Assembly (NCBI GenBank): GCA_014382905.1
Contig: JACNIU010000109.1
Coordinates: 1-51,923 of the forward strand
From: Desulfobacterales bacterium
GTDB taxonomy: Bacteria > Desulfobacterota > DSM-4660 > Desulfatiglandales > Desulfatiglandaceae
Direction of reading: 5' to 3'
DNA: 51,923 nt
The translations under genes and the position numbers were made by a program. Shown in pieces: positions 31,456-51,121 of this stretch; position 1 is the first letter of the stretch, and every line of letters begins with the position of its first letter. The notes beneath the pieces were generated by a model that worked only from the letters and a program-made list of their open reading frames with translations, did not search any database and was not told the DNA's origin.

Positions 31456-32490
31456 ATGGAATTGCGACTCATTGAAAAATCGGATCATGATTTTTTTGTT
31501 CAAAACCTCATCCACCATTACCAGGTGGAAGGGGTCAAACGCAAGGAAAGCGCCTTTATTTACGGCCTGATAAAATCGCCTGAGGAGCTCTGTTTAGATT
31601 TTGACTGTACGCTTATCCCCCCGAAGAAGTATTTTTTACCCCCAAAGGAAGCGCTTTTTCAATTCGCATCCGGTCCCGCTCCTGAGGCCACTCCGGTGAT
31701 CGCGGACGACCCCTTTATCCTCTTCGGTGTCCATCCCTATGATCTTAAGGCGATCCATCAGATGGACAGGATTTTTGCCAGTGGAGTTCCTGATCCTCAT
31801 TACCTGAAGCGGAGAGAGGCCGCCCTGATTATAGGCGTCGACCCGATCAGGGTTGCTCCGCGCGCTTTTTGGGCTGATATGGGAGCAGCAACGATATCCA
31901 ACGGTTTTGACCTGATGTTCACAGATATCGGCGAAAGCTTTATCGTGGAGACCGGGAGTAGCAAGGGAGAAGCCCTCCTGACGCAGTACGGGAAGTGCCG
32001 CCCAGCCACAAAGGAGGAGGCTCGGGAACGGGTGAGCGTGCGGTCTCGGGTCTCGCACGCCTGCAAGAAGAGGGGCATCGCCTTCCCGAGAAGAGAGATC
32101 CCCACACTCCTGAAACACTCCTGGGATAAGATCTTCTGGGAAGAGTGGGCCGATAAGTGTCTGAGCTGTGGGACGTGCAACCTTGTCTGTCCCACCTGTT
32201 ACTGCTTTGATGTAAAGGATGATATGAATCTGGACCTGATACACGGAGAACGGATGCGTCGCTGGGATGGTTGTTTGCTTCAGGATTTTGCCAAGGTTGC
32301 CACGGGTGAAAATTTCCGTGAGACCCGGGCTTCACGGTATCGTCACCGTTTTTTCCGAAAAGGCCTTTATCTCTTCGGGCTGCTGGATGACGTCGCATGC
32401 GTGGGATGTGGGAGATGCGCTTCGGGCTGTCTGCCAGATATTGCTGACCCGGTGAATGTGTTTAACAAATTAAGGGAAGATGAAAAATAA
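31456..32490 (+). CDS. hydB: Sulfhydrogenase-type Fe-S subunit (beta)
   Basis: 344 residues. HydB carries two [4Fe-4S] clusters linking the hydrogenase small subunit to the flavin subunit. The cluster motifs are CLSCGTCNLVCPTCYCFDV and CVGCGRCASGCLPDIADPV near the C-terminus. The N-terminal 200 residues match the family's diaphorase-like domain (FILFGVHPYDLKAIHQMDRI). The first gene of hydB-hydG-hydD-hydA; GGAGGTAAG precedes the ATG. Confidence 0.92.
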   Translation: MELRLIEKSDHDFFVQNLIHHYQVEGVKRKESAFIYGLIKSPEELCLDFDCTLIPPKKYFLPPKEALFQFASGPAPEATPVIADDPFILFGVHPYDLKAIHQMDRIFASGVPDPHYLKRREAALIIGVDPIRVAPRAFWADMGAATISNGFDLMFTDIGESFIVETGSSKGEALLTQYGKCRPATKEEARERVSVRSRVSHACKKRGIAFPRREIPTLLKHSWDKIFWEEWADKCLSCGTCNLVCPTCYCFDVKDDMNLDLIHGERMRRWDGCLLQDFAKVATGENFRETRASRYRHRFFRKGLYLFGLLDDVACVGCGRCASGCLPDIADPVNVFNKLREDEK

Positions 32491-32503
32491 GGAGGGATCC
32501 ACC

Positions 32504-33340
32504 ATGAACCAACCCATATTAGAAGCTTCTCCCTTTCTACCGAGGTGGGCTGAAATTACTCGAATTGAGAAACTCACTGAAAACGAGAAACTCTTCGAGA
32601 TGCACCTTGTGAGTGGAGAGCCCTTAGGCCATTTGCCTGGACAGTTTGTAGAGCTATCAGTGATGGGCATTGGAGAGGCCCCCATATCGATCTCCTCAGC
32701 GCCGAGGGAAAATGGTGCGTTTGAGCTTGCGATTCGAAAAGTCGGAAATCTTACCACTGCCATACACAACGCCGGCATAGGAGACAAGGTAGGAATCCGC
32801 GGTCCCTTTGGCACCCACTTTCCGGTGGAAGAGACCAAAGGAAAGGATCTCCTGTTTGTGGCCGGAGGAATAGGGCTCGTCCCATTGAGATCATTTATTC
32901 ATTTTGTCCTGGATCACCGAAATGAATACGGTAAAGTTATCATCTTTTTCGGCGCCAGAAACCCTTCTGAAAGGCTCTTCCTCGACGAACTTGATCAATG
33001 GAGTACAAGAGAAGACATAAAATATTTTGATACCGTGGATAGAGGAGACGCCAATTGGACGGGAAATGTAGGCGTCATCACCACCCTCTTCCCCAAGATC
33101 CATATTGATCCCTCAAGGACCTATTGTGCTGTTGTCGGGCCACCTGTGATGTATCGATTTGTCATATTAGAGGCCAAGGCAAAAGGAATACCGGATAGAC
33201 AGATCTTTCTGTCCCTTGAGAGGAGAATGAAGTGCGGGATCGGGAAGTGCGGCCATTGCCAGATCAATCACATCTATGTCTGTCAGGATGGACCTGTATT
33301 CAAATACTCGGACATCTTTGATTTGGAGGAGGCGCTGTGA
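32504..33340 (+). CDS. hydG: Sulfhydrogenase flavin (NADP-binding) subunit
   Basis: 278 residues of the ferredoxin-NADP reductase/PyrK superfamily. FAD-binding region LPGQFVELSVMGIGEAPISI, NAD(P)-binding start LLFVAGGIGLVPLRSFIHFV, and a [2Fe-2S]-type Cys cluster in RRMKCGIGKCGHCQINHIYV near the C-terminus. It passes electrons between NADP(H) and HydB. The start was placed at 32504, after GGAGGG; a longer frame begins upstream of that site. The stop overlaps the hydD start by one base (TGATG). Confidence 0.92.
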   Translation: MNQPILEASPFLPRWAEITRIEKLTENEKLFEMHLVSGEPLGHLPGQFVELSVMGIGEAPISISSAPRENGAFELAIRKVGNLTTAIHNAGIGDKVGIRGPFGTHFPVEETKGKDLLFVAGGIGLVPLRSFIHFVLDHRNEYGKVIIFFGARNPSERLFLDELDQWSTREDIKYFDTVDRGDANWTGNVGVITTLFPKIHIDPSRTYCAVVGPPVMYRFVILEAKAKGIPDRQIFLSLERRMKCGIGKCGHCQINHIYVCQDGPVFKYSDIFDLEEAL

Positions 33341-34080
33341 TGGAGAAACCAAGAATAGCATTTTTTGATTTTGCCAGTTGTGAAGGATGCCAATTACAGG
33401 TTATCAATCTGGAGGAGGACCTCTTGAAAGTGCTCGATGCCGTAGATGTCGTAAGCTTCAGGGAGGCCACCAAGGATCACTCGGATGATTATGACATCGC
33501 CTTTATTGAGGGTTCGATCACCCGCCGATCTGACGAACCCAGGCTCAAGGGCATTCGCTCAAATGCCAAGGTCCTCGTTAGCCTCGGTTCCTGTGCCACA
33601 TTGGGCGGAATCAACTGCCTTAAAAATTTTCAACCTGAAGCGTATGTCAGAAAATTTGTTTACGGAGACAAGGCCCATCAGTATGAGACATACCCTGCCC
33701 GACCCATTAAAGCAGTGGTTCCGGTAGATTTGGAAATCCCTGGGTGCCCTATAAACCGCCAGGAATTTGCCACAGTGGTCAAAGACCTGCTTTTGGGGAA
33801 AAAGCCGGAGATTCCCAACTATCCCGTGTGTGTGGAATGTAAGATGGCTGAAAATATTTGCGCCTACGAGAGGGACCTGGCCTGTATGGGGCCGGTTACC
33901 AGGGGAGGCTGCAAGGCATGCTGTGTCACAGAAGGAAGCTTTTGCTGGGGATGCCGGGGTCTTGTAGACGACCCTAACGCCGATTCCCAGAGGGAGATCC
34001 TGGCCAAGCACGGGTTGAGCGTGCAGGATGTCCTCGGGAAATTTCGACTTTATACTGGATTTTCGGAGGTGGCGAAATGA
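33340..34080 (+). CDS. hydD: [NiFe] hydrogenase small subunit, group 3b type
   Basis: 246 residues. The proximal-cluster motif ASCEGCQLQVI near residue 15 and the segment LVSLGSCATLGGINCLKNF are the small-subunit hallmarks; further Cys pairs in VPVDLEIPGCPINRQEF and CVECKMAENIC bind the other cluster(s). There is no twin-arginine signal, so it is cytoplasmic. It overlaps hydA by 4 nt. Confidence 0.94.
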   Translation: MEKPRIAFFDFASCEGCQLQVINLEEDLLKVLDAVDVVSFREATKDHSDDYDIAFIEGSITRRSDEPRLKGIRSNAKVLVSLGSCATLGGINCLKNFQPEAYVRKFVYGDKAHQYETYPARPIKAVVPVDLEIPGCPINRQEFATVVKDLLLGKKPEIPNYPVCVECKMAENICAYERDLACMGPVTRGGCKACCVTEGSFCWGCRGLVDDPNADSQREILAKHGLSVQDVLGKFRLYTGFSEVAK

Positions 34081-35363
34081 GTGCTGAAAAGATTATAAAG
34101 GTTGACCACGTGACCCGGGTGGAGGGCCACGGGAATATCTTAATAAAGATAAAGGATGGCAAGGTAGAGGAATGCCTGTGGAAGGTAGTAGAGGCGCCCC
34201 GGTTTTTTGAGGCCATGCTCCGCGGGCGTAAATGGTACGAAGTCGCCCATATTACTTCGAGGATCTGCGGGATCTGCTCCATCGGACATACCCTCACATC
34301 TCTGAAGGCCACCGAGGCGGCCATGGGAGTGACCGTATCCGAGCAGACATTGAAGTTTCGAAGACTCCTGTTGCACGCCGAAACCCTGCAGAGCCATATC
34401 CTTCACTTGGGATACCTTGTGCTTCCGGATCTCGTCGGGGTACCCAGCGTTGTGCCTCTGGCATCCTCACATACCGAACATGTGCTTCGCGTCGTCAGGA
34501 TCCATCGCATGGCCAACGAGATGTCTGATCTTCTTGGAGGCCGCACGACCCATCCCCAGCGGCCGGTGGTCGGGGGATTCACGAAATGGCCAACCGCCCA
34601 AGAGATGGAGACATTGCGCCAGAGACTGATAGACAGAGTCCCTGACGTGGAAGCCGTGGCATCCCTGATCAAGGATCTTGCGGGAAAACTTCCTAAGTTT
34701 ACCAGGGAAACCGAGTTTATCGGCCTGACCAGCGCGGATGAATACGCCTTTTATGACGGAGACATTGCTTCCACAGATGGAGGCACGTGGCCTGTGGATC
34801 AGTACAAGAAGGTTACCAATGAATACCTGGTTCCCCAGTCCACGGCGAAGTTCACCAAGAACAAAAGGGACGCCTATATGGTGGGTGCGCTTGCCAGATT
34901 GAACCTGAATTATGACCAGTTGACGCCCAAGGCCAAAGAAATCGCGCAGGCCTTTGGGCTCGGGCCTATGAACTACAACCCGTTCATGAATAATGTTGCA
35001 CAATTGGTGGAATTCGTCCACTGCTTAGAAGAATCGATCCGCCTCATTGATGAGATACTGGAGGAGGGAATCGAAAGCGAAAAACCATCGGTCTCTGTCC
35101 GGCCCGGCAGGGGGAGCGGCTCCACCGAGGTCCCCAGAGGTATCCTGTTCCACGAATATGAATACAACAACAACGGGGAATGCGTCTGGGCCAATTGCGT
35201 TATTCCCACTAACCAGAACCACGCGAACATCCAGAAAGATCTGGAGACCTTGATCCCTGAGATAAAGGACAGGCCTCAAGAAGAGATAGAACTCACAGCA
35301 GAAATGCTTGTCAGGGCATATGATCCCTGTATTTCCTGTTCTACCCATTGTATTTTCCTTTAA
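34077..35363 (+). CDS. hydA: [NiFe] hydrogenase large subunit, group 3b type
   Basis: 428 residues. The Ni-Fe ligands are in RICGICSIGH (L1) and DPCISCSTH (L2); all four cysteines are Cys, not Sec. The N-terminal VDHVTRVEGHGNI also fits. Only four residues (CIFL) follow the L2 histidine, so any maturation peptide is minimal. The gene set with HydB, HydG and HydD is that of group 3b bidirectional NADP-linked hydrogenases (sulfhydrogenases), which can produce or oxidise H2 and reduce sulfur in vitro. Maturation genes (hyp) are not in the window. Confidence 0.95.
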   Translation: MSAEKIIKVDHVTRVEGHGNILIKIKDGKVEECLWKVVEAPRFFEAMLRGRKWYEVAHITSRICGICSIGHTLTSLKATEAAMGVTVSEQTLKFRRLLLHAETLQSHILHLGYLVLPDLVGVPSVVPLASSHTEHVLRVVRIHRMANEMSDLLGGRTTHPQRPVVGGFTKWPTAQEMETLRQRLIDRVPDVEAVASLIKDLAGKLPKFTRETEFIGLTSADEYAFYDGDIASTDGGTWPVDQYKKVTNEYLVPQSTAKFTKNKRDAYMVGALARLNLNYDQLTPKAKEIAQAFGLGPMNYNPFMNNVAQLVEFVHCLEESIRLIDEILEEGIESEKPSVSVRPGRGSGSTEVPRGILFHEYEYNNNGECVWANCVIPTNQNHANIQKDLETLIPEIKDRPQEEIELTAEMLVRAYDPCISCSTHCIFL

Positions 35364-39291: not shown

Positions 39292-39852
39292 ATGAAAACA
39301 ATTGCCGTAAAGGATTTAATGGTGCCTCTTGAAGAATATGCAACGGTTTCAGAGGAAGCCACACTGTTTGAGGCTGTCCAAGCTTTGGAGAAGGCCCAGG
39401 AGGCGCTTGACCGGGACCGGTACAAGTATCTTCACAGGGCCATTCTGGTCTATGACAGCAAGAAAAGGATTGTCGGCAAGATAAGCCAGCTGGATGCGTT
39501 AAGGGCCTTAGAACCAAAATATGAGAACTTGGGTGATTTGGGAAGGATGTCGCGCTCCGGTTTCAGCCCGCGATTCCTGAAGAATATGCTAAAGCAGGAG
39601 TCTTTGTGGGACCAGCCGCTTCGCGATATCTGCATCAAAGCGGCTAACGTGAAGGTGAAGAGATTCATGTATATCCCAACAGAGGGTGAATATGTGGAGG
39701 AAAGTGCCTCCCTGGACGAGGCCATCAATTTGCTGGTCATGGGACATCATCACTCTTTGCTGGTCACCAAAGGCAAGGACATCGTAGGGTTGTTGAGATT
39801 GACCGATGTATTTGCAGATGTCTTCCAGATGATGAAAACCTGCGCGATCTAG
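39292..39852 (+). CDS. CBS-pair protein
   Basis: 186 residues. CBS 1 (1-70: IAVKDLMVPLEEYATVSEEA ending with VYDSKKRIVGKISQLDALRAL) and CBS 2 (about 115-180, with SLLVTKGKDIVGLLRLTDVF) separated by a helical linker. Probably a nucleotide-sensing regulator. It precedes the DASS transporter by 54 bp and may regulate it. GGAGAAGGAGGGG precedes the ATG. Confidence 0.88.
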   Translation: MKTIAVKDLMVPLEEYATVSEEATLFEAVQALEKAQEALDRDRYKYLHRAILVYDSKKRIVGKISQLDALRALEPKYENLGDLGRMSRSGFSPRFLKNMLKQESLWDQPLRDICIKAANVKVKRFMYIPTEGEYVEESASLDEAINLLVMGHHHSLLVTKGKDIVGLLRLTDVFADVFQMMKTCAI

Positions 39853-39906
39853 CGCGAGCCCTTAAGCTGTATATATCCTTTATCTTTGGAAGGAGGTCTT
39901 TCGTCA

Positions 39907-41517
39907 ATGAGCCACGAAATCGAACATGGGGCTGGGGGAGGCGGAATCCTGGCCAACAAGGCACTCTGGATCTGTATCGGCGCTGCGATCTTCATTCTGG
40001 TCGCCTTCGTGTTACCTACCCCTCAGACGCTATTGGAGATAGTACAAAAATACGGGTTTGCCGAAAAAATGATGAAGTGGGAAGTCGCACACAGCATTCC
40101 TGACGCCGCCCATAAGACGATGGTTGTGCTCGGAATTATCCCGATGGCGGTAATCTTCTTTGCCACCGAGGCCATTCCCATCGGACTGACGGGCATCTTA
40201 ATGCCCATTCTGGCCTACTTTCTCCACCTTCTTCCCACCAACATGATCGGCCAAACCTTTGCCGGCGATGCCCCCATGTTTCTCTTGGGTGTGCTTGCCA
40301 TGGGGGTTGCGGTAGTGGATGTGGGGCTGCACAAACGTCTGGCCAGTTGGCTTCTGGGGTGGACCAGGGGATTTCTGGTCCCTGTCTTTGTTTTGTGTAT
40401 CAGTATGTCGGTGGTGGGCTCTTTTATCTCGGCCCATGCCATGTGCGCCTTTATGACCCCGGTTATGGCAGCGGTCTATTTTGGGGCGGTATCGGCTAAC
40501 AGCAAAGGGGGCAAGATAGAACACGATCCTGCCCTGGCAAAGTTTCTGATGTTTTCCCTCTGTTTTTCCCTGAATGTGGGTGGGGTGGGATCGCCTGCAG
40601 CCGGGGGCCGTAACGTGATTATGATGGGCTTTTGGAGCGAGTACAAGGTTCCCATGGATTTTTTCACCTGGATGAAGTACGGCCTGCCCATTGTGCCGCT
40701 TCTGGGGATTATTGTTGCCCTTTACATGCTTGCCCTTTTTAAGAGGAACATCAAGACCGGGGACCTTACCCCCGGGCTGGCAGCCATAAAGGACGAGACC
40801 AAAAGGATGGGGAAGATGAGCTATCCAGAGTACGTCACCTTTGGAATGCTGATCCTCATTCTCATCTTGTGGATCGTGGGAGGTGAGGAAATGGGGTTGG
40901 GGGGGCCGGCGCTTCTGGCACTCCTGATCCCGGTCTTATTCAAGACCACGGACTGGAAAAAAATTCTGGGCGGCATCTCTTGGGATGCATGGTTCATGTA
41001 CTGCGGGGCCCTGACCTTAGGCGCCCTCCTCAAGGAAAGCGGCGCTGCCATGTGGTTAGCCCAGAGTTTTTTGAAAATCCTATCACATGTGGATATGAAT
41101 CAAGGCTATGGTTTATGGGTCGGACTATCCGCTCTTTCCGGGCTGATGACCAATTTTATGTCCGATGCCGGCACAACAGCCCTCTTGGGTCCGATCGTGA
41201 TTCCGATGGGAATTATGACCGGGGTTCAAGGAGAACCCTGGGCGGTGGGGCTGGGCGTTGCCTTTGCCACCTCCTTTGCCCATTTCCTGATCGTGGGCAC
41301 GCCCAACAACGCCATTGTCTACGGATTGGGAATCTACCCGGATTCGGGAGAGAAGATGATTCATCCCATGGACTTCATAAAATATGGCTTTGTTCTCTTT
41401 CTCCTTTGCATGGCCGTGATCTGGGTCGTTGAATTTTTAGTGGTCTACAAGATCGTCGGGTTTCCCGAGGGGATTCTTGAGACAGCCAGGAATGCCATGG
41501 ACGCCGGCATGAAGTAG
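39907..41517 (+). CDS. DASS/SLC13-family anion transporter
   Basis: 536 residues with about 12 hydrophobic segments. The two-fold repeat of DASS (Na+/dicarboxylate or sulfate) transporters is visible: GGVGSPAAGGRNVIMMG and LMTNFMSDAGTTALLGP, with IVGTPNNAIVYGLG near the end. The first SNT-type motif is unusual (SPAAGGRN), so the substrate site may differ from citrate/succinate carriers. Start ATG at 39907, after AAGGAGGT. The likely substrate is a C4-dicarboxylate or sulfate; which one is open. Confidence 0.88.
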   Translation: MSHEIEHGAGGGGILANKALWICIGAAIFILVAFVLPTPQTLLEIVQKYGFAEKMMKWEVAHSIPDAAHKTMVVLGIIPMAVIFFATEAIPIGLTGILMPILAYFLHLLPTNMIGQTFAGDAPMFLLGVLAMGVAVVDVGLHKRLASWLLGWTRGFLVPVFVLCISMSVVGSFISAHAMCAFMTPVMAAVYFGAVSANSKGGKIEHDPALAKFLMFSLCFSLNVGGVGSPAAGGRNVIMMGFWSEYKVPMDFFTWMKYGLPIVPLLGIIVALYMLALFKRNIKTGDLTPGLAAIKDETKRMGKMSYPEYVTFGMLILILILWIVGGEEMGLGGPALLALLIPVLFKTTDWKKILGGISWDAWFMYCGALTLGALLKESGAAMWLAQSFLKILSHVDMNQGYGLWVGLSALSGLMTNFMSDAGTTALLGPIVIPMGIMTGVQGEPWAVGLGVAFATSFAHFLIVGTPNNAIVYGLGIYPDSGEKMIHPMDFIKYGFVLFLLCMAVIWVVEFLVVYKIVGFPEGILETARNAMDAGMK

Positions 41518-41608: not shown

Positions 41609-42046
41609 ATGATGAAACCATTGGTTTTATTAGTAGATGACGAGGTTCCTTTTGTGGAGACCATGACCAAGCGTTTGCAAAAACGGGATCTGAATGTAAA
41701 TACGGCCTTCAGCGGACAGGAGGCGCTGGAGGTTTTGGACAAAAACCGCAATACAGATGTTGTTATTTTAGATGTCAAGATGCCGGGCATGGACGGTATT
41801 GAGGCCTTAGGCGAAATCAAAAAATCGTTTCCCCTGACCGAGGTCGTCATGCTGACCGGTCACGGCACCATCGAATCGGCCATCGAAGGGATGAAGAAAG
41901 GGGCGTATGATTACCTGCTGAAACCGTGCGACATTGACCAGCTCATGCTCAAGGTGGAAGAGGCGACCCAGAAAAAGCGAATCCACGAAGGAAAGATTCG
42001 CGAAGCCAAAGTGAAGGAAGCCATGTCAAGACACGGCCTTGAGTAG
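41609..42046 (+). CDS. Single-domain response regulator
   Basis: 145 residues. Receiver with VDDE (9-12), Asp55 in VVILDVKMPGMDGIEAL, MLTGHGTIESAIEGMKKGAY and Lys in YLLKPCD. The tail KKRIHEGKIREAKVKEAM is helical. No output domain. It is the first of a receiver-kinase-receiver-receiver run (41.6-44.8 kb). Confidence 0.92.
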   Translation: MMKPLVLLVDDEVPFVETMTKRLQKRDLNVNTAFSGQEALEVLDKNRNTDVVILDVKMPGMDGIEALGEIKKSFPLTEVVMLTGHGTIESAIEGMKKGAYDYLLKPCDIDQLMLKVEEATQKKRIHEGKIREAKVKEAMSRHGLE

Positions 42047-42166: not shown

Positions 42167-43879
42167 ATGGATCAGGACAAGAATACGCACAACGGATATT
42201 ATCACTCGCTGACCAGAAACATGCTGCTGGGCATCATACTTGTTGCGATCATGCCCATGATCGTGGTCAGCGGCATCATCCTCTACAGATTCGACATCTA
42301 CTACCACGAAAAAGTCCACGCCCACTTAGAAGAACTGGTCCTCAAACATAAGCAGCAAATTGATAGCTTTTTGAGACAGAGGCTGGGCGATATCCGTCTG
42401 TTGACCTCCACCTTTTCTCTCGAAGAGCTGAAAAACGAGTCCTTTTTACGGGACAGACTCGAGCAGCTCCAACAGATATATGGCCCGATGTTTGTAGATC
42501 TGGGCGTCATCAATTCCCGGGGCATCCAGGTGGCCTACGCAGGGCCGTTCAAACTGGGCCAGGCGCAATATTCCGAGGCCAAATGGTTTCAGATGGCCAT
42601 GAAAAGCGACTATTATAAGAGCGATGTTTTTCTGGGGCTCAGGGGTCTTCCCCACTTCATTATCGCCGTGCGAGAGAACTGTTGCGGAGAGGAATGGATA
42701 TTCAGGGCCACCATCGACTTTGTGGCCTTTAATAACCTTGTTGAAAACATCCGGATTGGTGAAACCGGCTTTGCCTTTATCCTGAACAGGAAAGGGGAAT
42801 TCCAGACAAAACCCCTTTTTGATCTGATTCCCAACAGGGAACCGTATACGGATTTTCTCGGAGACAACGAGAAGTTCAAGGGGGGCGTACGCATTATTGA
42901 GCGGGACGATGAGTCCGGAAACAGCGTTATATATGTTGCGACACTGCTAAAACATGGGGAGTGGCTCTTGGTTTATCAGCAAAAGGCCTCCGATGCTTTT
43001 TCTGGTCTGAGAAAGACCATCAGGGTGACCATCGCCATTGTGCTGTTAGCCGCAATCTGCATTGTGTCCATGGCCCTGATTGTTTCCAAAAAGATGGTCA
43101 GTCGAGTTGAACAGGCTGACAAAGAGAAAGAGTTGATGAACGAGCAGGTTGTTGAAACCGGAAAATTGGCATCGGTAGGTGAATTAGCGGCAGGCATTGC
43201 TCACGAAATCAACAATCCGGTTGCCATTATGGTCGAAGAGGCCGGATGGATAGAGGATCTGTTAGAAGAGGAGGAATTCAAGGAAGGAGAAAATTTAAGT
43301 GAATTCAAGAGAGCATTAAACCAGATACGTAACCAGGGAAAACGGTGCAAGGACATCACCCATAAGTTGCTCAGTTTCGCGAGAAAAACCGATTCGAGAA
43401 TCCAGGAAGTCGATCTGAATGAACTGATCGAGGAATTGGTGATCCTTTCAGAACAGAGGGCCAAGTTCAGCAACGTGGCCATCAAGACAAAGTTTCAAGA
43501 AGATCTGCCCCATTTACGTGTGTCCCAGACCGAGGTTCAGCAGGTGGTCCTCAACCTGATCAATAATGCCCTCGATGCCATGGAAAAAACAGGGGGAAAC
43601 TTAGCCATATCGACTCACTTGGAGGAAGGTCATATTATTGTAGGCGTCGCTGATAATGGGCCAGGAATTCCAGAGTCTAATATCGCCAGGATATTCGACC
43701 CATTTTTCACCACTAAACCTGTTGGAAAGGGGACCGGACTGGGTTTATCCATCTGCTACGGGATCATCAAAAAGATGGGCGGGGACATTGTTGTACGGAG
43801 CAAGGTAAATTCTGGAACGACCTTCAGTGTCAAGATGCCCCTTCCGGAAGAGAAAACGCAGAGAAAACCGACAACTTAG
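42167..43879 (+). CDS. Cache-domain sensor histidine kinase
   Basis: 570 residues. TM1 about 19-42 ([20 protein letters not shown]), a periplasmic dCache-like domain about 45-280 ([20 protein letters not shown]), TM2 about 284-306 ([18 protein letters not shown]). His346 sits in [20 protein letters not shown]; the HATPase has [32 protein letters not shown] and [13 protein letters not shown]. NtrB-like class. Cache domains bind small organic ligands outside the membrane, which suits a neighbour of an anion transporter. Confidence 0.93.
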
Positions 43880-43936: not shown

Positions 43937-44320
43937 ATGTCAGACAAGGCAGATCCTAAAGAGAAGATCAGGGTTCTTCTTGTGGATGACGAGATACCCT
44001 TTGCCGATGTTGTTGCCAAGAGATTGGGCAAAAGAGGGATGGCGGTAACTCCCGTCTATACAGGAACCGAGGCGATCCGGACTATCAGAAAACACGATTT
44101 TGACGTCGCAGTTCTGGATCTTAAAATGGAAGATATGGACGGAATAGAGGTCCTCAAGATCTTTAAAAAGGCCTATCCTGAAATGGCGGTGATCATGCTC
44201 ACCGGTCATGGTTCAGAACAGGCTGCAAAGGATGGGCTTGCGAACGGAGCCTTCGATTATCTTACCAAGCCGTGCGAATTGGAAGACCTGGTAAAAAAAA
44301 TTCATGAGGCCGCTCGATAG
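43937..44320 (+). CDS. Single-domain response regulator
   Basis: 127 residues. Receiver with LLVDDEIPFADVV, Asp61 in VAVLDLKMEDMDGIEVL, IMLTGHGSEQ and LTKPCELEDL. No output domain. It overlaps the next receiver frame if that begins at 44304. Likely phosphorylated by the kinase upstream. Confidence 0.92.
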   Translation: MSDKADPKEKIRVLLVDDEIPFADVVAKRLGKRGMAVTPVYTGTEAIRTIRKHDFDVAVLDLKMEDMDGIEVLKIFKKAYPEMAVIMLTGHGSEQAAKDGLANGAFDYLTKPCELEDLVKKIHEAAR

Positions 44321-44333
44321 GAGAGTGATCAAA

Positions 44334-44750
44334 TTGGATGTATTGAGGGTTTTACTTGTAGATGATGAGGTGGAATTCGTCGAGACATTGGCCAAACGGA
44401 TGAATAAACGAAACGTCAAGGCCTCGGGGGTAAATAGTGGTGAGGAAGCGCTTGAATTCTTGGATCAGTATCCCACGGACGTGGTGGTATTGGATGTCAA
44501 GATGCCCGGGATAGATGGCATCCAGGCCCTGAGAGAAATCAAGCTACGATACCCGTTGATCGAGGTGATTATGCTCACCGGTCACGCCAATGTGGAAGTT
44601 GCGATTCAAGGAATGGAATTGGGGGCATTTGATTATCTCATGAAGCCGATGGCGATCGACGATCTTCTGTACAAAGTACAGGACGCGTGGAAAAAGAAGA
44701 CCCTTCAGGAAAAAAAGATAGGGGAACGGATTCAGGTTTCCAAGGTTTGA
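44334..44750 (+). CDS. Single-domain response regulator
   Basis: 138 residues from TTG at 44334, ten bases after AGGAG; an ATG at 44304 in the same frame is an alternative but overlaps the previous gene by 17 bp. Asp54 in VVVLDVKMPGIDGIQAL, MLTGHANVEVAIQGMELGAF and YLMKPMAIDDL are standard. Closely similar to the receiver at 41609, suggesting local duplication. Confidence 0.88.
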   Translation: MDVLRVLLVDDEVEFVETLAKRMNKRNVKASGVNSGEEALEFLDQYPTDVVVLDVKMPGIDGIQALREIKLRYPLIEVIMLTGHANVEVAIQGMELGAFDYLMKPMAIDDLLYKVQDAWKKKTLQEKKIGERIQVSKV

Positions 44751-44786
44751 AATCATCGGCGTTTGGTGGAAGTGATATAGATTTAA

Positions 44787-44832
44787 GAAAGGCTAAGGGC
44801 GAGCGATATGTTGACAGCCTTTAGCCTTTTTT
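44787..44832 (+). terminator. Rho-independent terminator
   Basis: AAAGGCTAAGG pairs with CCTTTAGCCTTT (one mismatch) over a loop of about 16 nt and is followed by a T run. It ends the receiver-kinase operon. Confidence 0.85.
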
Positions 44833-44905
44833 CTGTGTTTCGCCCAATAAGGATGCATACCGGTCAACCAACGAGCAACCGGCAACCAGCAACCAGAGAT
44901 ATCCC

Positions 44906-47494
44906 ATGGGTCGAATACTGGACGCTTTGAGAGGTCCTTTCTTAAAAAGGGAGAAGGAAGGCGAGGCGAACGCCGAAGAACTGCGCCATGCCTTCAAGAC
45001 CCGGTATCACCATTTCAAACTGCTCTTGAACGCAAATAACAAGGCGCTCGAGATCATGGCGGAAATGGAAACGGCCCTGTTGGGAACAAGCCCCTTTGGC
45101 ATGAACTTCGTCCGGTCGCGATGCACCGCTATGTCCACGAATGTCTGGCAGATCACCAGGAACCTGAACGAGCTGGCCCCTAAGAAATATGAAGAGCTCT
45201 ACGGCAGTTTCAAAGAGATCCAGTTAAAAATAAACCCGTTTATTTCCCATCGGGATGTGGCCCAGGAAGGGCCGTTTGTTCTTCCCCTGAGGTCAGTGGT
45301 CAAGGAAATGGCGGATCAGGTGGGAAGCAAAGTCGCCAATCTCGGGGAGATCAAGAACAGGCTTCACAGGCAGGTCCAGAACGGGTTTGCCGTCACTGCC
45401 AAGGGTTACTATCGGTTTATGGAACATAATGATTTTCAGGCCGAAATAGATCGCCGTATCCAGGCCACCAATGTGGAGCGTTTGGATCAACTTCATGCCC
45501 TCAGTGCCGGCATCCAGCAACTGATGATCGGGTCGCCTCTTCCAGCGGATCTTGAGGAGGCCATTAAAGACCAGTACCGACGCTTAGCGGATGAAGAAGG
45601 AAGGAGTATCAGAGTAGCCATGCGGAGCAGCGCCCTGGGAGAGGACTTTGCCGGGACGTCCTTTGCCGGCCAGTACCGTTCGGAGCTGAATGTGAGCGGT
45701 GAGCACATTCTCGATGTCTATAAGGAAATAGTTGCCAGTAAGTACAGCCTCCCTGCAATGGCCTACCGTCTCAACCGTGGGATCCGCGATGAAGATGTGG
45801 CCATGTGTGTGGGGTGTATGGCTATGATGGATGCTGTTTCAGGAGGCGTCCTTTACTCCCGAAACCCTCTCAACTTCAATGATGAGACCCTTGTCATCAA
45901 TTCGGTCTGGGGCCTTCCCAAAGCGGTGGTTGATGGGAGCGCTGCTTCAGACCTCTTCATCGTCTCCCGCGGTGAGCCTATGGCGATCATCCGAAGAGAA
46001 GTAGCCCTTAAAGAACAGAAACTTGCATGCTATCCGGAAGCAGGGGTCCGTCGTTTGGACGTACCTGAACCGGAAAGGCATCTCGCTTCCGTAGAAGATG
46101 ACCAGGTTATGGAACTTGCACGTCTGGCAGTTGAATTGGAAGGGCACTATGGTGCACCCCAGGATATCGAATGGGCCATTCAAATGGACGGTTCCATTGT
46201 TCTTCTTCAATGCCGGCCTTTGACGCAAGTTGAAGAATTCGAGGGCCCCGATCTTGATACAGTTTACGAAAAAAGGCGTGAATCGGTTATCTTGAAGGGC
46301 GGGGTTTCGGCCAGTCCGGGCACAGCGGCAGGTCCCGTGTATCTTGTATGCAAAGATATGGACGCCCTTCAGTTTCCTGAGGGCGGTGTTCTGGTTACGA
46401 CCCAAGCGCTTCCCCGATGGGCCTCTTTCCTAAATCGGGCAGCCGCAGTGATTACGGAGAAGGGGGGTGTGACAGGTCATCTCGCCAGTGTGGCCAGGGA
46501 GTTTGGGGTTCCTGCCCTTTTCGGCGTGGAAGGCGCCACCGGACGGCTGAAGAACGGGCAGATGGTAACGGTTGATGTAAATATCCGCTCGGTGTACGAA
46601 GGACGTATTGAGTCCCTTCTATCCAAGCAAAAAAGCACGAAGCGCCTTATGGAAGGGAGCCCAGTCTACGAAGCGCTCAAAGGGGTGACACAGCATATCA
46701 TCCCCCTTAATCTCTTAGATCCTGACGCCCCTAACTTTAGTTCCAGAAACTGCAAGACCATGCACGACATTACTCGCTTCTGCCACGAAAAGGCCGTTCA
46801 CGAGATGTTCCAGTTCGGGAAGGATCACCGGTTCCCTGAGCATTCCAGTAAACAGCTTTTTTGCGACGTTCCGATGCAGTGGTGGGTCTTGAATCTGGAT
46901 GACGGATTCAGGGAGGAGGTGGGAGACAAGTACGTTCGCTTGGAGAATATTGTTTCCATCCCGATGCTGGCCTTGTGGGAAGGGATCACCTCTGTACCCT
47001 GGGAAGGTCCCCCGCCGGTTGACGGGAAGGGATTCATGTCGGTCATGTTTCAGGCGACTACCAACAGGGCGCTTGTCCCCACGGTACGTTCAAAGTTTGC
47101 CAACCGAAATTACTTTATGATTTCCAAAAACTATTGCAGCCTCAATTCGAGACTCGGTTTCCATTTCTCGACAGTAGAGGCCCTGGTGAGTGAACGATCC
47201 AGTGAAAACTATATCAGCTTCCAGTTCAAGGGAGGAGCCGCGGATTTTGAAAGGAGACTCAAGAGGGTCCTTTTTGTCAGAGACATATTAGAGGAACATG
47301 GTTTCAGAGTTGGGGTGAAGGAAGATACCATCATTGCCCGACTGGAGGATCAAGACGAAGCGTTCATGAAAAAACGGCTCAAGATTATCGGCTATCTGAC
47401 CATCCATACAAGGCAGTTAGATATGATTATGTCCAATGAGGCATCGGTGAGCTACTACAGGTCAAAGATAAGAAATGACATTCAGGAACTTTAG
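44906..47494 (+). CDS. PEP-synthase-like protein with unrecognised C-terminal domain
   Basis: 862 residues. An N-terminal helical region (1-120) is followed by the ATP-grasp PPDK_N domain (about 130-440), with KVANLGEIKNR, IRVAMRSSALGEDFAGTSFA and GAPQDIEWAIQMDGSIVLLQ. The phosphohistidine swivel domain (about 470-570) has His525 in GGVTGHLASVAREFGVPALF. The PEP/pyruvate-binding TIM barrel that should follow is absent; instead 270 residues (MHDITRFCHEKAVHEMFQFG onward) match nothing I recognise. Thus it may phosphorylate a different substrate. The start codon follows a word-like spacer (CAACCAGCAACCAG) without a clear ribosome-binding site. hdrA follows after 88 bp. Confidence 0.85.
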   Translation: MGRILDALRGPFLKREKEGEANAEELRHAFKTRYHHFKLLLNANNKALEIMAEMETALLGTSPFGMNFVRSRCTAMSTNVWQITRNLNELAPKKYEELYGSFKEIQLKINPFISHRDVAQEGPFVLPLRSVVKEMADQVGSKVANLGEIKNRLHRQVQNGFAVTAKGYYRFMEHNDFQAEIDRRIQATNVERLDQLHALSAGIQQLMIGSPLPADLEEAIKDQYRRLADEEGRSIRVAMRSSALGEDFAGTSFAGQYRSELNVSGEHILDVYKEIVASKYSLPAMAYRLNRGIRDEDVAMCVGCMAMMDAVSGGVLYSRNPLNFNDETLVINSVWGLPKAVVDGSAASDLFIVSRGEPMAIIRREVALKEQKLACYPEAGVRRLDVPEPERHLASVEDDQVMELARLAVELEGHYGAPQDIEWAIQMDGSIVLLQCRPLTQVEEFEGPDLDTVYEKRRESVILKGGVSASPGTAAGPVYLVCKDMDALQFPEGGVLVTTQALPRWASFLNRAAAVITEKGGVTGHLASVAREFGVPALFGVEGATGRLKNGQMVTVDVNIRSVYEGRIESLLSKQKSTKRLMEGSPVYEALKGVTQHIIPLNLLDPDAPNFSSRNCKTMHDITRFCHEKAVHEMFQFGKDHRFPEHSSKQLFCDVPMQWWVLNLDDGFREEVGDKYVRLENIVSIPMLALWEGITSVPWEGPPPVDGKGFMSVMFQATTNRALVPTVRSKFANRNYFMISKNYCSLNSRLGFHFSTVEALVSERSSENYISFQFKGGAADFERRLKRVLFVRDILEEHGFRVGVKEDTIIARLEDQDEAFMKKRLKIIGYLTIHTRQLDMIMSNEASVSYYRSKIRNDIQEL

Positions 47495-47582: not shown

Positions 47583-50500
47583 ATGTCAGATCGTGTAGTA
47601 GGGTCTGTTTTGGTCGCAGGCGGTGGGATTGCCGGCATGCAATCAGCGCTTGATCTGGCCAATTCCGGATACTATGTATACCTTTTAGAAAAGGGGCCTT
47701 CCATTGGCGGGGCCATGGCTCGATTGGATAAGACCTTCCCCACCAATGATTGTGCCATGTGAATCATATCGCCCAAACTGGTCGAGGTCGGCCGGCACCC
47801 GAATATCGAACTCATCACCTTAGCTGAACTTACCGCTGTTCGCGGAGAGGCCGGGAATTTTGAGGTAGAGGTTCTCAGACACCCACGTTATGTGGAGATG
47901 GACAAGTGCATCGCATGCGGGACCTGCTCGGAAAAATGTCCGAAAAAGGTCGATGACCCGTTTAATGGGAACCTGATCAAACGTAAGGCCGTCTATATTG
48001 AATATGCCCAGGCGGTTCCGCTGAAATATGTCGTTGACAAGGAAAACTGCATCTACTTCAAGAAAGGGAAGTGTCGGGCCTGTGAAAAATTCTGCCCCAC
48101 AAACGCCATCGACTTTGAAGAGAAGGAAGAAAGAGTGACCCTCCGCGCTGGCGCTGTTATCCTTGCGCCGGGGTTTATCCCGTTTAATCCCGGACCGTAC
48201 ACGACCTACGCCTACAGCAAATACCCAAACGTTGTCACCAGTATGGAGTTCGAGCGTATCCTCAGTGCCACAGGCCCCTATATGGGACATCTTCAGCGGC
48301 CCTCTGACGGAAAGAACCCCAGAAAAATAAAAAAGATAGCATGGCTCCAGTGCATCGGGTCAAGGGATATCAACACGTGCGATCACGGATATTGCTCTTC
48401 AGTGTGCTGCATGTATGCCATAAAAGAGGCGGTTATTGCAAAAGAACATGCGGGGGCCGATCTGGACTGTGCCATTTTTTATATGGACATGCGGACCCAC
48501 GGCAAGGATTTTGACAGATATTATGATAACGCCAGAGAAAAACATGGGATCCGTTTTATTCGCTCACGCGTTCCAACCATTGATGCCATCCATGACAGTG
48601 ATGACCTCCTGATCCCGTACACGAACGAAGATGGAGAAGTCGTACAGGAAGCCTTTGATATGGTCGTCCTTTCTGTGGGCATGGAGGCGTCCCCTGAGGC
48701 CCTGGAACTGGCAAACCGGCTAAACATCGAACTAACCGAGGGAGGGTTCTGCAGAACCGAATCTTTCCATCCTGTAACTACCTCTAAAGACGGGGTATAT
48801 GTGTGCGGGGCTTTTCAGGGGCCCAAGGATATCCCCCAGTCGGTCATTGAAGGGAGTTCTGCCGCAGCAGAAGCAGGGGCCCTGCTGAGCGGGGCGAGGA
48901 ACGCCCTAACCAAGAAAATAGAGATCCCGGAGGAGAAGCGTACGGCCGGTGAAAGGCCCCGCATCGGTGTATTCGTCTGTCAGTGTGGCATCAATATCGC
49001 GGGGGTGGTTGATGTCCCTGAGGTACGTGATTTCGCCGGATCCCTTCCCTATGTGGAATATGTCACTGATAATCTGTTTACCTGCTCCACGGATACCCAG
49101 AAGACCATTGCCCAGGTGATCGGCGAGAAAAACCTCAACCGCATTGTGGTTGCCGCCTGTACGCCCAAGACCCACGAGCCCCTGTTTCAGGAGACATTGG
49201 TCAATGCGGGATTAAATAAATATCTCTTTGAGATGACGAATATCCGGAACCAGGATTCCTGGGTCCATAAGGATGACCCCCGGATGGCTACTGAAAAGGC
49301 TAAGGACCTTGTGCGCATGGCCGTGGCCAAGGCTGCGCTGATGGAGCCTCTCGTCGAGACTGCCCTGGAAATAAACCAGAAGGCCCTTGTTGTCGGCGGA
49401 GGGATCTCCGGGATGGTGGCTGCAAAAAGCCTTTCGGCCCAGGGCTACCTTGTCTGTCTTGTGGAACAGTCTTCCTCTTTAGGGGGCCAGGCCCTGAATC
49501 TTTTCAGGACCTGGAAGGGAGAGGACGTTCAGGCGCATTTGTCCGATTTGATCAAGACTGTCCGATCAGACCCCCATATCCAGGTCCATCTTGAAACGGA
49601 ACTGGGGAATGTGGAAGGTTTTGTCGGGAACTTCAGGACAACGCTCGTCTCCGGAGGGAGGGAGGAGCAGGTCGAACACGGGGTCGCAGTAATCGCTACC
49701 GGGGCAAATGAGTCCAGGCCCGAAGAGTACCTGTACGGAGCGGATCCGAGGGTAGTCACGCACCTTGAACTGGATCGGAGACTGATCGCTGATGACCCGG
49801 GCCTGAAAGAGATCCGGACCGCCGTGTTCATCCAGTGTGTCGGCTCCAGGGAACCTATGAGGCCTTATTGTTCCAAGGTCTGCTGCACACATTCCATTGA
49901 GAGCGCCATCTACCTGAAGGAACTCAACCCTGACATGAAGGTTTATATCCTTTATCGGGAGATACGCACATACGGGGAGCGGGAGACGCTCTACAGGGAT
50001 GCACGTCTTAGAGGGGTTATCTTTATTCGATTCTCAGTGAATCAGAAACCACGGGTTCTATCAGATCAGGAGAGGCTGAGGATCGAGATAATGGACAGCA
50101 TCCTGGGTGAACAGATCACATTTACCGCCGATCTCGTGGCACTGGCCTCTGCAATTGTACCTTACAGAGATGAGAGACTCGCCCGGCTGTTCAAGATCCC
50201 GATGAATGAAGATGGATTTTTTGTGGAGGCCCACGCTAAGCTCGGGCCCTCGGAGTTTGCCACGGACGGTGTCTTTCTCTGCGGTATGAGTCACTACCCC
50301 AAGCCGATCGATGAATCTGTAGCCCAGGCCATGGCTGCTTCGTCCCGTGCCGTTACCCTGTTGGCCAGAAAAACGGTTCGGATGAGCGGTACCGTAGCTG
50401 AGGCAGATCCGGGCGCGTGCAGTGGGTGTGGTGTCTGCGTGACCATTTGCCCTTATTCTGCCCCATCAACTCTGGAAGAAGGGCCTTTTGCAGGAAAAAT

Positions 50501-50621
50501 GGAGGTGAATCCCGCATTATGCAAGGGGTGCGGCCTGTGCGTGGCCTCCTGTCGTTCAGGGGCACTGAATCTCAAGGGGTTCAGGGAAGATCAGATCATG
50601 GCCATGATTAACGAGATATAG
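47583..50621 (+). CDS. hdrA: Heterodisulfide reductase subunit A, selenocysteine-containing
   Basis: Read through an in-frame TGA at 47760-47762 the gene encodes 1012 residues. FAD module 1 starts [39 protein letters not shown] holds Sec60 where HdrA normally has Cys. [4Fe-4S] motifs: [14 protein letters not shown] (about 109) and CRACEKFCP. From about 455 comes the HdrA-type [20 protein letters not shown] domain, then a second FAD module from about 600 ([18 protein letters not shown]) lacking the Cys-rich insert, and two C-terminal ferredoxin motifs ([27 protein letters not shown]). HdrA is the flavin hub of electron-bifurcating or -confurcating complexes. AAGGAGA precedes the ATG; a SECIS-like hairpin follows the UGA. 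Confidence 0.93.
47778..47795 (+). promoter_or_regulatory. SECIS-like hairpin downstream of the UGA codon
   Basis: CUGGUC pairs with GGCCGG (two G-U and four... mixed Watson-Crick/wobble pairs, six in all) around the loop GAGGUC. The loop contains GGUC, as in the AGGUCU loop of the E. coli fdhF SECIS. The loop begins 22 nt after the UGA, within the bacterial range. SelB would bind this to insert Sec. Confidence 0.7.
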
Positions 50622-50647
50622 GGAGCTCATTTTATCAAGGGGTATAT

Positions 50648-51121
50648 ATGGGAACCATAGATTTGGAGCGGAGTGATCCTGATTTCGTAAAGGAATTAGC
50701 CCGACAACCCGGAGGGGAGAGCATATCGGCCTGTTTTGCATGCCGGAGCTGCGTTGCAGGCTGCCCCATATCGGCCATAAACAGGGAGTTCAGCCCGGCC
50801 AAGATCATCCGCATGGTCCTTTACGGGCTCAAAGAAGAGATCCTCAAAAACGATTTCATATGGCTTTGTTCGACCTGCTATACATGTCAGGAAAGATGTC
50901 CCCAGGGTGTGAGTATTACCGAGTTGATGACCCTTCTGAAGAATATGGCAGTCAAAGAAGGATACGCGCCCGCAGGGATATGGACACAGATGAAGCTTGT
51001 GAAAGGTGAAGGACGGATCTATCCGATCGATGATTTTGACAACAAGAAAAGGGACAAGGCCGGATTGCCGAGGCTTTCTACCTCATGCGGGGAAATAAAG
51101 GAGCTGTTCCAGCAAGAATAA
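50648..51121 (+). CDS. hdrC: Heterodisulfide reductase subunit C
   Basis: 157 residues. Two [4Fe-4S] motifs, CFACRSCVAGCPISAIN and CSTCYTCQERCPQGVSI, in a small helical protein are the HdrC pattern. It carries electrons between HdrA and HdrB. AAGGGG precedes the ATG; 26 bp after hdrA. Confidence 0.94.
   Translation: MGTIDLERSDPDFVKELARQPGGESISACFACRSCVAGCPISAINREFSPAKIIRMVLYGLKEEILKNDFIWLCSTCYTCQERCPQGVSITELMTLLKNMAVKEGYAPAGIWTQMKLVKGEGRIYPIDDFDNKKRDKAGLPRLSTSCGEIKELFQQE

Follow-up and report, generated by a model that had tools for sequence, protein, structure and literature searches.

A PEP-synthase-like protein family with an uncharted C-terminal domain, linked to receivers and anion permeases in sulfate-reducing bacteria

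The control of sulfate and related oxyanion uptake in sulfate reducers, as well as the identity of the permeases responsible, represents an open question; a survey of the many TauE/SafE-type (TSUP) proteins of these organisms judged the prediction of their function not feasible (PMC5840216). In Desulfovibrio vulgaris, transposon mutants in DVU0251, DVU0250, DVU0247, and DVU0246 grow in 100 mM nitrate as they do without nitrate (Korte et al., 2014; PMC4001038). According to the same work, DVU0251 is TauE-like, DVU0247 is a receiver, DVU0246 is a PEP/pyruvate-binding protein, and DVU0245 is a phosphatase, the mutants of which remain nitrate-sensitive; the homologs of DVU0251, DVU0250, DVU0247, and DVU0246 in strain G20 were also high-scoring in mutant pools. 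The authors proposed that nitrate enters via a leaky thiosulfate transporter (PMC4001038). Here we consider a protein designated PEPX, encoded in a DNA stretch of 51,923 nucleotides from a Desulfobacterales bacterium (the whole stretch is hereinafter called the window; Table 1).

The closest described enzyme is PEP synthase (pyruvate, water dikinase; e.g., 2ols, 8a8e, 9dae), in which an ATP-grasp domain is followed by a phosphohistidine domain, aligned with PEPX at residues ~117-585. Unlike this enzyme, PEPX lacks the PEP/pyruvate barrel, possesses an added helical N-terminus, is linked to receivers and permeases, and mostly has A instead of T before the histidine (96 of 149 homologs). Rifampin phosphotransferase (5hv1, 5fbs) likewise has an acceptor part other than a barrel alongside its ATP-grasp and phosphohistidine domains; however, it matches PEPX in two separate stretches, and its histidine part is C-terminal, whereas the new domain of PEPX comes after the histidine domain. 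This enzyme and phenylphosphate synthase pass the phosphate from the histidine to their substrates. The prodigiosin ligases PigC and RedH are also PPDK_N-derived enzymes with a different acceptor, but their models cover parts of PEPX only (197-201 bits vs. cut-offs of 1300-1350). PTS enzyme I has the type of phosphohistidine domain in common with PEPX, and its transport-coupled phosphohistidine relay serves as a working analogy; still, it uses PEP and a barrel, whereas PEPX uses the ATP-grasp domain and has no barrel, and no HPr-like acceptor was identified.

Table 1. Features of PEPX and its gene run in the window (residue numbers are those of PEPX)
Feature	Position	Strand	Basis or remark
CBS-domain protein opening the run	39292..39852	+	Pfam CBS
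DASS-family anion symporter	39886..41517	+	Pfam Na_sulph_symp and CitMHS; TIGR00785 below cut-off
Stand-alone receiver REC1	41609..42046	+	Pfam Response_reg only
Sensor histidine kinase with dCache domain	42167..43879	+	Pfam dCache_1, HisKA, HATPase_c
Stand-alone receiver REC2	43937..44320	+	Pfam Response_reg
Stand-alone receiver REC3, overlapping REC2	44304..44750	+	Pfam Response_reg; orthologue adjoins TauE-228-PEPX in most relatives
REC3-PEPX gap	44751..44905	+	TauE (~432 aa) and ~228-aa membrane protein at the equivalent site in most relatives; absent in the window and L039
PEPX, PEP-synthase-like protein, 862 aa	44906..47494	+	ATG start; ORF call and Pfam; orthologues 50-94% identical
Conserved helical N-terminal region, residues 21-113	44966..45244	+	Outside the PPDK_N match; model helices 21-57, 66-90, 97-113
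ATP-grasp domain (PPDK_N), residues 137-446	45314..46243	+	Pfam E 4.5e-89; K142, R240, E422, Q435, R437 conserved
Mobile phosphohistidine domain (PEP-utilizers), residues 490-558	46373..46579	+	Pfam E 3.7e-20; His525 codon 46478-46480
Undescribed C-terminal domain (CTD), residues ~586-862, replacing the PEP barrel	46661..47491	+	No Pfam family; alpha/beta model; no PDB fold match
Near-invariant CTD motif C616-H620-D621-R624-H627-E628	46751..46789	+	149-153 of 153 sequences

Domain architecture of PEPX

PEPX is a genuine gene, as evidenced by orthologues of comparable length and the identity given in Table 1. The earlier note, made from the same DNA, had proposed that the ATP-grasp and phosphohistidine domains are kept, and both are indeed recognized by Pfam at scores of 299 bits (PPDK_N, curated cut-off 27) and 71.7 bits (PEP-utilizers, cut-off 23.1). 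In the set of about 150 non-redundant homologs, H525, the phosphohistidine position, is conserved in 146/150, along with the ATP-grasp residues K142 (141/151), R240 (146/152), E422 (145/153), Q435 (144/153), and R437 (147/152). The catalytic role of these residues is assigned from an alignment to PEP synthase and rifampin phosphotransferase together with general knowledge of such enzymes.

The resemblance to PEP synthase ends after the histidine domain. The NCBIfam models of PEP synthase align from residue 123 and end at residues 576-607, with scores of 354-360 bits that do not reach the cut-offs of 598-740, and the profile of 70 full-length PEPX homologs matches the solved PEP synthases only at positions ~117-585. 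The Pfam search of PEPX returned no C-terminal PEP/pyruvate-binding barrel and nothing recognizable past residue 558. The rifampin phosphotransferase model reaches 233 bits (cut-off 999); in PEPX, the histidine domain directly follows the ATP domain, so the order is not ATP-rifampin-binding-histidine. For the full-length PEPX model, the matches were PEP synthase, rifampin phosphotransferase, and PPDK, in keeping with its first two domains.

The last 270 residues had been claimed not to form the TIM barrel, a normal PEP-utilizers C barrel being named in advance as the refuting outcome, and structure prediction upheld the claim. Modelled alone by AlphaFold2 with an alignment of 84 homologs, the CTD displayed a mixed alpha/beta fold other than the (beta/alpha)8 TIM barrel (mean pLDDT 82.8), comprising a long helix at 619-640 and a meander of four strands at 735-775, followed by a helix, a pair of strands, and further helices. 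None of the 84 homologs matched Pfam in this region above noise, and a Pfam identity for the CTD was therefore dropped. A Foldseek search of the model against PDB returned no match at E <= 0.001 (best E 0.03, with a low TM) and no barrel. The weak top matches, RecJ-Cdc45, ArpC2, DR_1245, and ExsC (E >= 0.03, low TM), were set aside; several of them presumably share a secretion-chaperone-like fold. The full near-invariant set of the CTD in the ~150 non-redundant homologs includes C616, H620, D621, R624, H627, E628, H753, N768, G776, G777, R787, R836, and D839.

The helical N-terminus (~21-113), which is absent from the earlier note, is the second addition to the PEP-synthase plan besides the CTD. 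Its residues F30, Y34, F37, L41, N44, and L48 are invariant across 70 sequences, and a search for it as a stand-alone protein yielded fragments of PEPX as the sole matches. Overall, PEPX proteins make up a novel variant within the PEP-synthase superfamily, one bearing an uncharted domain.

Certain homologous loci (L152, 9260-14758; L195, 400-5439) encode much longer PEPX proteins of 1680-1833 aa, with ~900-1000 extra N-terminal residues lacking a Pfam match. Other PPDK_N proteins are encoded in the genome harboring PEPX itself. One 1782-aa protein (L173, 2247-7592, contig C472) has the PEP-utilizers domain ahead of PPDK_N, opposite to the arrangement normally found, and two further loci (L170 and L171, contigs C84 and C271) contain adjacent ORFs of 619+360 and 560+433 aa with separate histidine and ATP parts, recalling split phenylphosphate-synthase-type enzymes.

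Degenerate paralogues, a minority of the homologs, reveal which part of PEPX is under the strongest constraint. One PEPX copy near an intact copy lacks the ATP-site residues and the histidine at three loci (L154, L177, L186); inside the TauE-228 operon of two others (L149, L151), PEPX has a degenerate ATP site and a deleted histidine domain; the middle one of three tandem copies lacks the ATP-site residues in L230 and L231. All these copies retain most or all of the near-invariant CTD residues, which indicates that the CTD is under the tightest constraint within PEPX and can be of importance even when phosphotransfer in cis is absent. Hence, the core function of PEPX may be something other than phosphotransfer. 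In L237 and L238, PEPX has lost the ATP-site/histidine set and the CTD set alike. Three PEPX paralogues are arranged in tandem in L230, L231, and L232, adjoining a TauE permease and an Alph_Pro_TM-type protein, with the middle or neighboring copy degenerate; the presence of a degenerate copy within these sets suggests a mixed complex.

Genomic context and distribution of the family

In the window, PEPX concludes a run of genes on the + strand in the order CBS - DASS - REC1 - kinase - REC2 - REC3 - PEPX, so the DASS symporter lies five genes upstream; according to Pfam, REC1-3 have no output domain. Promoter and terminator scans gave results close to those for shuffled sequence. The closest relative, L039, is also missing the TauE-228 pair, and a search run without a positive control returned no TauE match elsewhere in the genome of PEPX. 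Apart from this run, the window contains at 31456-35363, in a row, genes for an Fe-S protein, a flavin reductase-like protein, a hydrogenase small-subunit-like protein, and a NiFe hydrogenase large subunit.

The usual order in the orthologous loci is kinase - receivers - TauE/SafE permease (~432 aa) - ~228-aa membrane protein - PEPX. Directly upstream of PEPX, both TauE and the 228-aa gene are situated in 42 of 98 testable loci, and a receiver comes next in 37 of those 42. A separate clade displays the order DASS - Yip1-like - receiver - PEPX - kinase. The recurrent permease neighbors belong to two unrelated families, TauE/SafE and DASS. Within 6 kb of PEPX, a receiver was found at 81% of loci, TauE/SafE at 61%, and DASS at 13%, as calculated for 100 loci with >= 4 kb on each side, among which close relatives of the window are over-represented; about a third of the loci have no permease within this distance. 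TauE accounted for 71 of 910 near genes vs. 2 of 559 far genes, and receivers for 188/910 vs. 53/559; the near and far frequencies of kinases scarcely differed. The linkage of PEPX to receivers and permeases is well supported. The ~228-aa membrane protein family (L042, 7344-8027, and relatives) has no Pfam match and is nearly always located between TauE and PEPX.

Genes for HdrA and HdrC are located downstream of PEPX after a gap of ~400 bp. This region (47892-51121) encodes an HdrA-like protein (909 aa) and an HdrC/QmoC-like protein (157 aa), the HdrA family scores being all under the curated cut-offs. From the position of PEPX between receivers and hdrA, it had been supposed that the acceptor might relate to energy metabolism or signalling, and a gene-neighborhood survey had been advised. 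The survey supported signalling, with receivers recurrent, but not hdrA as a partner: HdrA-like genes are equally rare near PEPX (2/910) and far from it (1/559). HdrA and HdrC do not recur as neighbors of PEPX, and the proximity of hdrA in the window is incidental. The recurrent anion permeases of two families had been missed. Overall, the earlier note was right on the architecture and on expecting an unusual acceptor; transport together with signalling is a better clue than hdrA.

The CTD was detected in 42 of the 85 genomes from the order, in 146 of 395 genomes sampled across the phylum Desulfobacterota, and in 81 of 119 genomes of a family resembling Desulfovibrionaceae, often with several copies per genome; none was found on plasmids. 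Among the same 395 genomes, aprA, encoding dissimilatory APS reductase and counted as present at E < 1e-100 (a cut-off of our choice), accompanied the CTD in 140 of the 146 genomes; aprA without the CTD occurred in 23, and neither in 226. The association gave a Fisher p of 3e-73, a value not to be taken literally with genome relatedness uncontrolled. Among these genomes, the CTD is clearly confined almost entirely to those with aprA, and homologs of PEPX occur nearly exclusively in sulfate-reducing bacteria. When 84,980 species genomes were scanned with the window sequence as the seed, an approach that favors close relatives and was the sole look outside Desulfobacterota, 127 relatives were returned; 80 of them were kept, and their titles refer to Desulfobacterota-type organisms or just to a "bacterium" or "Proteobacteria".

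The nitrate cluster of Desulfovibrio

Two of the homologous loci (L233, L234) reproduce the gene order of DVU0251-0245, with Pfam recognizing TauE, a phosphonate-type binding protein, a kinase, a receiver, PEPX, and a dual-specificity phosphatase. PEPX of these loci carries both the CTD and the helical N-terminus, and the shared gene order marks DVU0246 as a probable PEPX member. DVU0246/Dde_0604 is annotated with the same ATP-binding and mobile domains as PEPX (PMC4001038), but it represents a separate clade divergent from the window protein, and it is accompanied by a different type of TauE, a phosphonate-type binding protein, and a phosphatase. The window features receivers and a DASS permease but no TauE. 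The lack of resistance in mutants of the downstream phosphatase, DVU0245, counts against the phenotype being due to polarity on that gene. Most simply, the nitrate-cluster mutants would mean that an active permease requires both PEPX and the receiver. A literature search on the PEPX family found nothing besides Korte et al.

Proposed function of PEPX and the alternatives

Stand-alone receivers with no output domain are expected to have a protein target, and PEPX is their constant partner that is neither a kinase nor a permease. This favors control of PEPX by the receivers, with PEPX in turn acting on the permease or on the small protein partnering it. PEPX would be the output of a two-component system switching a TauE/SafE or DASS permease, with sulfate, thiosulfate, or sulfite as the probable substrate. 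The dCache kinase would phosphorylate the stand-alone receivers, one of which may bind PEPX at the helical N-terminus or the CTD. The ATP-grasp domain would then load His525, and the phosphoryl group might proceed to a protein acceptor residing in, or held by, the CTD; as a result, the permease, or else its small partner in the membrane, would become active. Intact PEPX would thus operate by phosphotransfer from His525, and degenerate copies by CTD binding. Taken as a whole, this reading, i.e., a receiver-controlled, ATP-driven phosphohistidine protein with the CTD as an acceptor or docking domain that switches oxyanion permeases in sulfate reducers, is assigned a probability of about 0.45. 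That PEPX forms part of a receiver-linked anion-permease system is considerably more secure and can be regarded as likely; that it works through phosphotransfer to a protein is put forward tentatively.

The main competing explanation places a small-molecule acceptor in the CTD. PEPX would then be a metabolic enzyme transferring phosphate from His525 to, e.g., a sulfur oxyanion or a carboxylate imported by the linked permease. The near-invariant polar residues of the CTD (C616, H620, D621, R624, H627, E628, H753, R836, D839) would also fit a small-molecule active site, which counts against the favored reading, and every characterized barrel-less relative known to us has a small-molecule acceptor. 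However, the linkage to stand-alone receivers is constant, and the CTD residues are kept in paralogues devoid of the ATP site or the histidine, where an enzyme dependent on His-phosphate would have no use for them; moreover, the phenotype of the receiver mutant is that of the permease mutant (PMC4001038). Accordingly, we regard the metabolic enzyme as rather unlikely.

The same retention of the CTD in degenerate copies speaks for PEPX being mainly a scaffold, with the CTD binding the permease or the receiver and the ATP-grasp/histidine part sensing ATP or adenylate charge without passing the phosphate on. A scaffold is also consistent with a CBS protein heading the gene run of the window, CBS being an adenylate-sensing type of domain. 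Still, the ATP-site residues and H525 are kept in >90% of the homologs, pointing to catalysis in most of them, so a scaffold seems less plausible yet. As for PEPX being a PEP synthase or pyruvate phosphate dikinase of the ordinary kind whose barrel has diverged, the alignment of residues 123-607 to PEP synthase models is in its favor, but the scores far under the PEP synthase cut-offs (see above) and the non-barrel CTD model, which finds no barrel in PDB, contradict it, and other PPDK_N proteins of the genome could fill the role; it was rejected on domain content and fold as most improbable.

Returning to the receiver-controlled PEPX, it probably helps to switch sulfur-type anion transporters rather than make phosphoenolpyruvate. 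It would, though this is a doubtful extrapolation at present, constitute a novel mode of transporter control in sulfate reducers, in which stand-alone receivers act through an ATP-dependent phosphohistidine protein on two unrelated permease families via a new domain, resembling PTS but powered by ATP and not by PEP. The PEPX family flags the TauE/SafE and DASS permeases sitting in a shared regulatory operon. It ties a published but unexplained nitrate phenotype to a family spread through the sulfate-reducing Desulfobacterota and offers a testable protein explanation for the nitrate resistance arising on disruption of a PEP-synthase-like gene in Desulfovibrio, which bears on the treatment of oil-field souring with nitrate.
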